A DNA stretch of 18,183 nucleotides from Chitinophagaceae bacterium (GTDB taxonomy: Bacteria > Bacteroidota > Bacteroidia > Chitinophagales > Chitinophagaceae): positions 1 to 18,183 of the forward strand of contig JAACZX010000004.1 of NCBI GenBank assembly GCA_009996555.1, written 5' to 3'. Of the stretch, positions 951 to 3,621 are shown in pieces. The notes beneath the pieces were generated by a model. That model made no database searches and was not told where the DNA came from. It saw nothing but the letters and a program-made list of their open reading frames with translations. Position numbers and translations under genes: made by a program. Each line of letters opens with the position of its first letter. Positions within the stretch are counted from its first letter, which is position 1.

Positions 951-1222
951 GATGTACATGCTTACTGTTCACCGATGCATTGATTGCTTTGTTCAATACA
1001 TGCAGTGTGCAAACGATGCACAAAAACTCCAGGCTTGTTTGTTGTGTAAGTCGATCAGCTTACTTGCTGATGGGGTGAGTTTGAAGTAACAATCTGAAAA
1101 AATATTTTCGTCAATTGCAGCACTAAATTACTAAAAGTTTTAGCTTTACCAAACTTTCTTACGAACCCAGACATACTTTTTTATCACCACTCTTGCAGTT
1201 AGCCGGAGTTAAATTATTTTTT
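951..1222. promoter_or_regulatory. Divergent intergenic region between LigT and the UmuD homologue
   Basis: This stretch of about 270 bp has no convincing coding frame. It must hold the promoters for LigT (leftward) and the umuD-like gene (rightward). Visible structures are a small hairpin with ATCAGC/GCTGAT arms at 1054-1071 and the palindrome at 1131-1143. No perfect TAnnTTTG is present; TAGCTTTA at 1141-1148 is one base away and overlaps the palindrome. Confidence 0.35.
1131..1143. promoter_or_regulatory. Palindrome CTAAAAGTTTTAG, candidate operator for the umuD-like gene
   Basis: Two perfect 6-bp arms (CTAAAA / TTTTAG) surround a single central G, 79 bp before the chosen start codon. umuDC operons are classically SOS-regulated by LexA, so an operator is expected here, and the palindrome overlaps a near-consensus -7 element (TAGCTTTA). 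I do not know the LexA site of this organism, so the link is inference. Confidence 0.3.
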
Positions 1223-1657
1223 ATGGATGGGGAAGATTTTTTTGGTGCCGCTTACAAAGGCAGTAAACAGTTTACACAACAACAGGTACGCACAGCAAAT
1301 GCCACGGGCTTTGGCGCCGCTGCTGACGATTATGCCGAACGTGGCATTGATTTAAATGAACAGCTGATCAAGAATAAACCAGCTACGTTCTTTTTTAAGA
1401 TGAAAGGCGATGCCATGCAGCAGGCGGGCATTTTTGATGGCGATATTTTAATTGTTGACCGCTCATTAAAACTTGCCAATGGAAAAATTATTGTGGCGGT
1501 ATTGAATGGAGAACTATTGGTGCGAAGATTTCACAAAAATTTTTCGTCAGAATTTTTAATTGCCGAAAATGACCGATACAAAAACATTAACCTGGCAGAG
1601 TTCGACGACTTTAAAATGTGGGGAGTGGTGGTTTATGTAATCAGGTCTCTGGCCTGA
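1223..1657 (+). CDS. UmuD homologue lacking the Ser-Lys protease dyad
   Basis: The protein is 144 aa from the ATG at 1223; an in-frame TTG at 1193 would add 10 residues, but the ATG gives the usual UmuD length (E. coli 139 aa). It aligns without gaps to E. coli UmuD over the key region: ATGFGAAADDYAERGIDLNE at residues 27-46 against CGFPSPAADYVEQRIDLN, and FDGDILIVDR against SDGDLLIVDS. In UmuD, Ser60 (GDSM) and Lys97 catalyse RecA-stimulated self-cleavage between Cys24 and Gly25 to give the active UmuD'. Here the equivalents are Ala64 (GDAM), Arg101 (LLVRRF) and Thr28-Gly29, with identical spacings of 36 and 37 residues. The fold should be kept but self-cleavage is predicted to be impossible. 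The last residues and the stop (TGA 1655-1657) lie inside a palindromic repeat. umuC follows only after a transposase insertion. Confidence 0.85.
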   Translation: MDGEDFFGAAYKGSKQFTQQQVRTANATGFGAAADDYAERGIDLNEQLIKNKPATFFFKMKGDAMQQAGIFDGDILIVDRSLKLANGKIIVAVLNGELLVRRFHKNFSSEFLIAENDRYKNINLAEFDDFKMWGVVVYVIRSLA

Positions 1658-1736: not shown

Positions 1737-2180
1737 ATGCCAATGATCAAAATATGGATCCATTTAGTATGGGCCACCAAAAGTCGAAAACTATTATTAG
1801 ATAAAAGCATCCGGCAAAAAGTGTGGCAACACATGCGAACCAATGCACTGGCAAAACAAATTCATATTGATTTTATTAATGGACATGTTGATCATGTGCA
1901 TATACTTCTTTCCATAAATGCAGACCAAACAATTGCAAAGATTGTTCAGTTGATCAAAGGCGAAAGTTCGTTCTGGATCAATAAAAACAATTTGTGTGAT
2001 GACAAATTTGAATGGCAGGATGATTATTTCGCTGTGTCGATAAGTGAATCGGGTGTAAATGCTGTAAGAGAATATATTAAAAACCAGGAAGCACATCATG
2101 CAAAGAAAACATTTCAACAGGAGTATGATGAGTTCATGAATAAATATGGATTCCTGTTAATCAAAGATTCCCAGGGTTGA
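1737..2180 (+). CDS. IS200-like Y1 (HUH) transposase, REP-associated type
   Basis: The 147-aa protein carries the HUH motif HVH at residues 53-55 (DHVHILLS) and the catalytic tyrosine Tyr113 in REYIKNQEAHH, the two signatures of the Y1 transposase family. KGESSFWINK (74-83) is the conserved central segment. Enzymes of this family cut and rejoin single-stranded DNA at hairpin-defined ends through a 5'-phosphotyrosine. All catalytic residues are present, so it may be active. The ATG at 1737 gives a normal N-terminus (MPMIKIWIHLVWATKSRK); the ATG at 1743 is also possible. The stop (TGA 2178-2180) lies at the tip of the following REP-like hairpin. It is in the same direction as umuD-like and umuC, so it may be transcribed with them. 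Confidence 0.85.
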   Translation: MPMIKIWIHLVWATKSRKLLLDKSIRQKVWQHMRTNALAKQIHIDFINGHVDHVHILLSINADQTIAKIVQLIKGESSFWINKNNLCDDKFEWQDDYFAVSISESGVNAVREYIKNQEAHHAKKTFQQEYDEFMNKYGFLLIKDSQG

Positions 2181-2337: not shown

Positions 2338-3621
2338 ATGTATGCAATCGTTGATTGCAATAATTTTTATTGTTCCTGCGAACGCTTGTTCAAACCGCAT
2401 CTCGATAACAAGCCTGTTGTTGTACTCAGCAACAACGATGGCTGTATTATCAGTCGCAGCGATGAAGCCAAAGCATTGGGTGTGGATATGGCCGGGCCTT
2501 ATTTTATGGCGAAGCCATTGATTAAAAAACACGACGTAGCTGTATTCAGCAGCAACTACAATTTATATGGCGATTTAAGTATGCGGGTGATGGATACTTT
2601 ACGCAGCATCATTGGTGAAGAGAACGTAGAAGTGTATTCAGTTGATGAAGCATTCGTTGATCTCAGCATTTTTCCAACAGAGGATCTTGAACGTATTGCA
2701 CGTGACATGCGGGAAAGAGTTGAACAATGGACAGGTATTAAAGTATCTATTGGTGTGGCTCCAACAAAAGTGCTGGCCAAGCTGGCCAATCGCTTGTCGA
2801 AGAAAAATAAAAAAGAAACGGATTGTGTGTTGGTGCTGGATACGGAAGAAAAAATAAGAAAAGGATTAGAACAAACACCAGTGGGAGATATTTGGGGCGT
2901 GGGTTATCAGTACGCACAAAAATTAAAAGAACAATGGTTTATTGATGATGCGTTGCAGTTAAGTAAGATGAGTGAAGAGTTTGGCCGCCTGCACCTGGGC
3001 GGTGTTGTAGGTGTGCGATTGATTCGTGAACTGAATGGCATTGCATCGAAAGACATGCAGGACGAACTCGTTACGAAAAAAATGATCGCCACCACACGCA
3101 TGTTCGGCAGCCCTGTTGACAACATTCATGATATTAAAGAGGCCGTTGCTACCTATACATCAAGGGCTGCCGAAAAATTAAGACGACAATACAGTGCAGC
3201 CAGCATCATCAGTGTGTTTGTGGTAGCGAAAGGCGAAAATCACAACGTAACATTCAACCGGGGCATTACGCATAGCCGGTACGCTACACTGCCGGTTGCA
3301 ACATCGTTCACCAATGAACTGATTAAACCGGCCGTTGCACTTGTAGATAAACTCTATAAAAAAGGTACACAGTACAAAAAAGCAGGCGTCATGTTGAGCG
3401 GACTTGTACCTGATGCATCGATACAAGGCAATTTGTTTGTATCGGAAACAAAAAACAACAGTCGTTTATTGATGGATATGATCGACAATATCAACTTCAG
3501 CCAACGGGATGATGTATTGAAGTTTGCAGCCAGCGGTACCACACGAGACTGGAAGATGCGGCAGGAATTACGCAGTCCACGTTATACAACAAGATGGGAA
3601 GAATTGTATGAAGTGAAATAG
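2338..3621 (+). CDS. umuC: Y-family DNA polymerase, UmuC subunit of Pol V
   Basis: From the ATG at 2338 the protein is 427 aa, close to E. coli UmuC (422 aa), and begins MYAIVDCNNFYCSCERLF. A longer in-frame start at 2236 would only add 34 residues translated from the REP-like repeats, so I reject it. Catalytic acidic residues are visible as Asp6 and Asp103-Glu104 (YSVDEAF), with the SNNDGC motif at 31-36. A QGNLF clamp-binding motif lies at 363-367, and the typical UmuC ending SPRYTTRWEELYEV is complete. It should copy past DNA lesions as part of Pol V, together with a UmuD-type partner and the sliding clamp. The upstream UmuD homologue is protease-dead and is separated from umuC by about 680 bp of transposon and repeat DNA. 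The stop is 1 bp from the convergent DUF72 stop. Confidence 0.93.
   Translation: MYAIVDCNNFYCSCERLFKPHLDNKPVVVLSNNDGCIISRSDEAKALGVDMAGPYFMAKPLIKKHDVAVFSSNYNLYGDLSMRVMDTLRSIIGEENVEVYSVDEAFVDLSIFPTEDLERIARDMRERVEQWTGIKVSIGVAPTKVLAKLANRLSKKNKKETDCVLVLDTEEKIRKGLEQTPVGDIWGVGYQYAQKLKEQWFIDDALQLSKMSEEFGRLHLGGVVGVRLIRELNGIASKDMQDELVTKKMIATTRMFGSPVDNIHDIKEAVATYTSRAAEKLRRQYSAASIISVFVVAKGENHNVTFNRGITHSRYATLPVATSFTNELIKPAVALVDKLYKKGTQYKKAGVMLSGLVPDASIQGNLFVSETKNNSRLLMDMIDNINFSQRDDVLKFAASGTTRDWKMRQELRSPRYTTRWEELYEVK

Follow-up and report, generated by a model that had tools for sequence, protein, structure and literature searches.

The window analysed here is a stretch of 18,183 nucleotides from a Chitinophagaceae bacterium (contig JAACZX010000004.1), and it carries, upstream of umuC, an umuD homologue whose product has lost the catalytic Ser, the catalytic Lys and the cleavage site of UmuD. 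Textbooks give self-cleavage of UmuD as the post-translational step that gates SOS mutagenesis. Judged from sequence comparisons, loss of the dyad and the cut site is ancient and shared across the family rather than peculiar to the window copy, and our results suggest that these bacteria run DNA polymerase V (Pol V) without the cutting step. If this is true, a family that keeps Pol V without its cleavage gate would be a natural experiment on the need for cleavage, the role of the uncleaved arm and the control of mutation. The fold and the system are already known; what appears to be new is a natural UmuD that lacks dyad and cut site throughout a family. No description of a natural UmuD without catalytic residues was found by title and abstract in the open-access PMC literature, a scope outside which most subscription papers lie. 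The features that carry the finding are the following.

1223..1657, forward strand: umuD homologue, 144 aa, S24 domain without catalytic Ser and Lys
1223..1303, forward strand: retained N-terminal arm, residues 1-27, with Y11, G13, K15, Q19, A25 and A27 nearly invariant
1298..1309, forward strand: former cleavage site N26-A27-T28/G29, where the canonical site is (V/I)-x-(A/C)/G
1412..1414, forward strand: codon 64, GCC (Ala), where the catalytic Ser is expected by alignment to E. coli Ser60
1523..1525, forward strand: codon 101, CGA (Arg), where the catalytic Lys is expected by alignment to E. coli Lys97

The window protein matched Pfam Peptidase_S24 (PF00717) with 87.9 bits (cut-off 23.3) and NCBIfam NF007621, 'DNA polymerase V autoproteolytic subunit', with 129.9 bits, above the cut-off of 110. 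Alignment by phmmer to solved E. coli UmuD and UmuD' chains, which for UmuD covered residues 28-143, placed A64 on Ser60, R101 on Lys97 and T28-G29 on C24-G25, and the spacings between cut site, Ser and Lys (36 and 37 residues) are identical in the two proteins. This bears out the earlier note on this DNA, which had read these three changes and both spacings from the letters; its further claim, that the protein cannot be switched on by cleavage, is likewise supported, since self-cleavage appears very unlikely from the sequence. The predicted fold matched UmuD and UmuD' (8gmt_A, E 4.6e-8; 1umu_A, E 5.4e-8), and AlphaFold2, taken here as weak support only, gave a confident S24 core and an unstructured arm. 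No second domain was found beside PF00717 in the profile search, and thus no N-terminal DNA-binding domain as UmuDAb has. The nearest named records are from Lacibacter luteus (96%) and L. cauensis (92%).

To define the distribution of the substitutions we pooled searches of the genus, family and order into a clade set of 138 loci, one per genome and each more than 50% identical to the window UmuD; these genomes are related and hence do not represent independent events. The gene was present in 14/14 genomes of the window's genus, and in the family sample a relative above 50% identity was found in 116/244 genomes, any match in 150/244. Scoring positions 28, 64 and 101, a check that the earlier note had proposed, gave TG at residues 28-29 in 124 loci, NG in 9 and SG in 5, so that Ala or Cys at 28 was seen in none of the 138, and Gly29 was kept in all of them. 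Residue 64 was Ala in 126, Ser in 11 and Thr in one, and residue 101 was Arg in 138/138. Written in the same order (28-29/64/101), the best 120 of 5975 database proteins nearest the window UmuD were TG/A/R (118) or TG/T/R (2), and the best 120 of 6682 relatives of a divergent member were TG/A/R (114), TG/S/R (3), TG/T/R, TR/A/R and, as read, TG/A/S (one each). Among the best 80 of 451 genome-record loci, 79 were TG/A/R and one SG/A/R. The label 'autoproteolytic subunit', which some clade records carry in the database, is by these residues wrong for this clade.

Outside the family, the matches listed in the order and phylum samples were at most 50% identical, and the subfamily is found here only in Chitinophagaceae, the window's own family. 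As controls, canonical-type loci fetched elsewhere in the class were AG/S/K in 29/29, and the outside-family loci from the phylum search had S/K in 19/19; the canonical loci fetched outside the family are the best-scoring ones and not every match. The best 120 proteins nearest the second UmuD of the window's own genome had Lys in 120 and Ser in 119, with one gap. A strict coupling of Lys and cut site is contradicted by locus L188, which has SG together with Ser and Lys, and among these 120 proteins VG, SG and NG occurred once each, all with Ser and Lys.

In a tree of 165 rows and 113 columns, from which positions 64, 101 and all before 29 were excluded, the rows above 50% identity formed one clade of 126 rows (SH-aLRT 99, stem 0.9) together with the outliers L148 and L149. 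Three repressor-like loci (L019, L020, L022) and near copies above 97% had been left out (180 to 165 rows). The tree required four changes at position 101, nine at position 64 and 17 at position 28; Arg101 is therefore fixed throughout the clade, whereas residue 64 varies (Ala, Ser, Thr or Cys). The order of the Lys, cut-site and Ser changes is unsure, because the tree was built quickly from few columns and leaves many forks open. Both outliers are under 50% identity and so outside the 138. L148 is PG/A/R; L149, which sits on a very long branch, has C and R at 64 and 101, its residues 28-29 being unaligned in the scoring and QG in the tree alignment. The Ser64 loci are spread over several nested groups; all of them have Arg101 and Thr28, and their Ser is written with TCN as well as AGY codons, by reversion or retention.

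The substituted gene is, on its substitution ratios, under strong purifying selection. Within the genus, NG86 omega (dN/dS), a second check named in the earlier note, had a median of 0.063 and a maximum of 0.143 (65/91 pairs with defined dS), and the window UmuD against its genus relatives gave 0.03-0.11 (10/13 with defined dS). Pooled pN/pS within the genus was 0.142, with 0.173 for the arm (1-27), 0.077 for residues 28-55 and 0.153 for 56-143. The replaced residues are spelled with varied synonymous codons (four for Thr28, four for Ala64, six for Arg101), and no internal stops were seen in any clade match among those listed.

The changes extend into the N-terminal arm. P3 of the cut site (position 26, E. 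coli 22) is N in 119, D in 17, S in one and K in one of the 138 loci, whereas canonical P3 is V/I/L in 114/114 anchored proteins of the best 120 and in about 33-34/36 other loci; a hydrophobic residue stood there in 0/138 clade and 34/36 other loci. Position 19 (E. coli 15) is Q in 135/138 and hydrophobic in 1/138, vs. 33/35 elsewhere, and position 21 (E. coli 17) is polar in 138/138 and hydrophobic in 0/138, vs. 30/34 elsewhere. F/Y at position 17 is kept in 134/137 clade loci. These counts come from the alignment, as anchoring by regular expression misplaced a few clade rows (four with K at P1). Mean entropy in the clade vs. the other loci was 1.52 vs. 2.68 bits in the arm, 0.33 vs. 1.46 bits in residues 28-55 and 1.37 vs. 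1.78 bits in the rest, which makes 28-55 the most conserved region. These residues lie next to and within the UmuD' arm that is modelled to enter UmuC (PMC11791011).

Control by the SOS response is indicated by a motif upstream of the gene.

1131..1143, forward strand: SOS box CTAAAAGTTTTAG (CTAA-N5-TTAG), 79 bp before the umuD start

It is the sole match to CTAA-N5-TTAG in the window, where 0.22 are expected (at least one in 39/200 shuffles). The motif has been reported for Chitinophagaceae (PMC8565304), and in the part of that report available to us UmuD homologues appear as regulated genes and the active site goes unmentioned. Within 400 bp upstream it was present in 133/137 clade loci vs. 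15/44 other loci, counted without L086 and L155, whose upstream sequence is short, and 424,837 downstream bases held 3 matches, or 0.003 per 400 bp. Judged by this motif, clade umuD is predicted to be under SOS control. The same genome encodes an HTH_3 (helix-turn-helix) plus S24 protein (L003, 411-1157) with A-G, GDSM, YKR and a CTAA-N5-TTAG box of its own, which is probably the SOS repressor of PMC8565304. Since L003 keeps A-G, Ser and Lys, cleavage of the repressor is probably intact and that of UmuD is not.

The partner polymerase lies downstream.

2338..3621 (start inferred; the listed open reading frame from 2236 is longer), forward strand: umuC, cognate Y-family polymerase, with catalytic D6, D103 and E104 present
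3424..3438, forward strand: pentapeptide QGNLF in UmuC, clamp-binding-like; QxxLF-type in 102/108 clade partners

We take QGNLF to be a clamp-binding-like motif. In 116/138 clade loci umuC follows on the same strand (median gap 78 bp; 115 within 1.3 kb), in 11/138 it is on the opposite strand and in 11/138 none is in the fetched flank. A UmuC search of 15 genomes, including all 11 unlinked ones, found a cognate UmuC of at least 59% identity in 11/15, and for 9/11 unlinked clade loci it lay elsewhere in the genome. The three catalytic acids were intact in 125/125 clade loci and 71/71 named loci where covered. Identity to the window UmuC is 52.0-91.8% for clade partners (n=114) vs. 37.0-45.1% for partners of other UmuD (n=34). 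UmuC positions 37, 102, 221, 249, 255, 353, 384 and 390 (numbered from 2338) separate the clade partners from the others and are candidate contacts of the uncleaved arm. The outliers L148 and L149 are in genomes G120 and G237, both without a cognate UmuC, and loss of UmuC may have freed UmuD to drift there.

Other UmuD copies could supply a cleavable partner. With one query (E <= 0.001), no second match to the clade protein was found in 95/116 family genomes; a cleavable partner is therefore not needed in those genomes, and dependence on a cleavable paralogue was rejected for most members. In the remaining 21, some second matches are clade copies or fragments (G249, G219) and some are repressor-like; a few others are in G058, G064 and G233. 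The window's genome has a second umuDC (contig C51, L168 2086-2544) of type AG/S/K, the sole UmuD-type second match among the 14 genomes of the genus; the others there are 26-30% identical and have longer frames.

Seven loci (L154, L158, L293, L295, L164, L165, L294) in genomes of the family carry short, armless umuD genes whose start, M-(G/A)-FPSP, is at the post-cleavage residue and lies 1 to 10 codons downstream of an in-frame stop. FPSP(A/S) is kept, Arg is at the Lys position in 7/7 and Ser is retained in 5/7. The four of these loci in the tree fall into two groups, and all seven genomes also carry an arm-bearing clade UmuD. By their sequence, the short genes are a separate route to a cleavage-free UmuD.

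The clade-wide substitutions, the purifying selection, the SOS box and a UmuC with intact catalytic acids favour a changed role. We lean, by a modest measure, towards an uncleavable UmuD that, without being cut, serves as the small subunit of a Pol V (UmuC) complex induced by the SOS response. Self-cleavage would have been given up, as the catalytic Ser and Lys, P3 and P1 and two more hydrophobic arm positions are replaced. The arm would no longer be docked in the old active-site cleft, and with the arm undocked the uncleaved dimer could bind UmuC in the manner of E. coli UmuD', giving activity without cleavage. Control of mutagenesis would then be left to transcription, through the HTH-S24 SOS repressor, and to RecA loading onto UmuC, rather than to RecA-stimulated cleavage of UmuD. 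Two published observations give this a frame: in E. coli, T14A/L17A/F18A (UmuD-3A) weakens arm binding and yields a UmuD' mimic (PMC5342242), and Pol V has been modelled with the N-terminal arm of one UmuD' inserted into UmuC, close to its active site (PMC11791011). The earlier note had offered a constitutive or uncleaved partner of UmuC as one option; it is the best fit, short of proof. A broader proposal, which we hold tentatively and at slightly under even chances, is that Chitinophagaceae have done away with RecA-driven cleavage of UmuD as a checkpoint on Pol V: once by turning UmuD into an activator that keeps its arm, is never cleaved and has gained a separate, conserved function for the arm, and probably twice more via UmuD'-encoding genes. 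Transcription and RecA loading would then be the only gates on damage-induced mutagenesis.

Several observations weigh against an active uncleaved subunit. In E. coli the uncleavable S60A form of UmuD reduces UV mutagenesis and makes cells more sensitive (PMC3901139, PMC5342242), so from uncleavability alone one would expect an inhibitor. UmuD-3A is matched only in part, L17 being the one position of the three that is clearly lost: position 22 (E. coli F18) is V/I in 136/138 and still hydrophobic, and of 137 loci 56 have T and 35 have S at position 18 (E. coli T14). Pro at E. coli 16 occurs in 27/34 other loci; its absence from the clade says little, because only 29/114 proteins of the nearest canonical set have it. 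Canonical FPSPA, the free N-terminus of UmuD', is FGAAA in the clade, and UmuC binding must therefore differ in detail. The low clade entropy may come partly from a younger clade. AlphaFold2 gave a low-confidence arm in the window protein, with a predicted local distance difference test (pLDDT) score below 50 over nearly all of 1-47; the arm of a canonical protein was modelled with low confidence as well, and its two short strands and block means of 48-62 over residues 1-50, vs. 39-46 in the window protein, are only a hint. Ser64 is present in 11/138 loci, always with Arg101, and a cognate UmuC was not found in G212, G220, G120 and G237 (4/15 genomes rechecked).

The S60A effect leads to the reading in which the protein is an uncleavable brake or checkpoint subunit that binds UmuC and the replisome like full-length E. 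coli UmuD and permanently restrains mutagenesis. Full-length UmuD and UmuC do act in a checkpoint (PMC3901139), the arm is retained and conserved, and only one of the three UmuD-3A positions is clearly lost. However, nothing was found to release such a brake in 95/116 family genomes, UmuC keeps its catalytic acids in 125/125 and umuD its SOS box, and the arm has lost its hydrophobic residues at E. coli positions 15, 17 and 22. As most genomes show no release partner while UmuC is catalytically intact, we regard the brake as less likely than an active uncleaved subunit and, overall, as unlikely. Alternatively, the protein could be cut by something else: in trans by a canonical UmuD or by the SOS repressor, by a host protease (such as ClpXP or Lon), or by residual Arg-assisted activity in the Ser64 members. 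UmuD subunits do cleave each other in trans in E. coli (PMC5342242), Gly29 is kept in 138/138, 11 members have Ser64, and the window's genome has both a second UmuD with Ser/Lys and the HTH-S24 protein. Against this stand the substrate itself, with P1 and P3 both changed (P3 from V/I to N/D in 136/138), and the same 95/116 genomes in which the window UmuD as query had no second match, so that another cutter seems rather improbable.

Less probable again is that clade UmuD has left Pol V and serves as manager of another polymerase or as a regulator. It would account for the 11 loci with umuC on the opposite strand, the 11 with none in the flank, and for G220 and G212 (90% complete), which have clade UmuD and in which cognate UmuC was not found. 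Yet 9/11 unlinked genomes do hold a cognate UmuC, the divergent L148 and L149 lie in genomes without a cognate UmuC, as expected if UmuC is the partner, and S24 is the only domain found. With S24 alone and a separate HTH plus S24 protein in the same genome, the regulator that the earlier note had also considered finds no support. Decay of the gene by or after transposon insertion, the note's remaining option, and sequencing error at codons 64 and 101, which it had named as a refuting condition, are refuted by the counts and left with next to no probability. A Y1 transposase gene does lie between umuD and umuC in the window, but a related transposase is in the fetched flank of only 14/138 loci while the Lys change is in 138/138, omega against genus relatives is 0.03-0.11, and the matches listed are stop-free. 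Error is excluded, as matching residues are common to the 138 genomes and the best 80 of 451 genome-record loci. A changed role is thus favoured over decay, as the earlier note had judged, by a trait found in 138 loci and by purifying selection.

Comparison with known systems places the uncleaved, arm-bearing UmuD among them as follows. With E. coli UmuD/UmuD' (NF007621, PF00717) the clade shares fold, length, an arm of ~28 residues, the umuD-umuC order and the SOS box, and it differs by replacement of Ser and Lys, of both P1 and P3, and of the hydrophobic residues at arm positions 15 and 17 (E. coli numbers). UmuD-3A (PMC5342242) is engineered; it likewise keeps the arm, has L17 changed and is not expected to be cleaved. 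The clade protein is natural, its T14 and F18 positions stay T/S/N and V/I, and its dyad and cut site are also gone; by analogy with the mimic activity of UmuD-3A, we infer that it may be a natural counterpart in effect. Phage P1 HumD, which is encoded already in the short UmuD' form (PMC7092418), would share a UmuD needing no cleavage. Unlike HumD, which has no arm, the window UmuD has one and does not start at the post-cleavage residue; the seven short umuD genes are HumD-like. Acinetobacter UmuDAb (PMC8565304) is also a UmuD relative with a changed role, and differs by its N-terminal DNA-binding domain. The Bacteroidetes HTH-S24 SOS repressor, which acts on CTAA-N5-TTAG (PMC8565304), shares the S24 domain; L003, of this repressor type, differs from the window UmuD in keeping A-G, Ser, Lys and a helix-turn-helix.

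The gap between umuD and umuC contains one further gene.

1737..2180, forward strand: Y1 (IS200-like) transposase gene between umuD and umuC, PF01797 95.5 bits

It scored 71.7 bits with NF033573 (cut-off 55) and 26.7 bits with the REP-associated NF047646, below the cut-off of 80; other transposase copies in the genome are only 35% and 25% identical. A related Y1 transposase was in the fetched flank of 14/138 umuD loci, the other 13 being 39-90% identical and mostly at the same spot, and the transposase is not part of the umuD trait. Within 1646-2290 the gene stands between two palindrome families tagged CAAGTC/GACTTG, and one 28-base palindrome had two genome matches (up to 3 mismatches), both in this interval. 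The gap looks like an insertion hotspot. Loci L006 and L010, from other species of the genus, have different inserts between umuD and umuC, of which, by eye, one is presumably another REP-associated transposase-like gene with its own palindromes and the other a DUF559-type-like gene.
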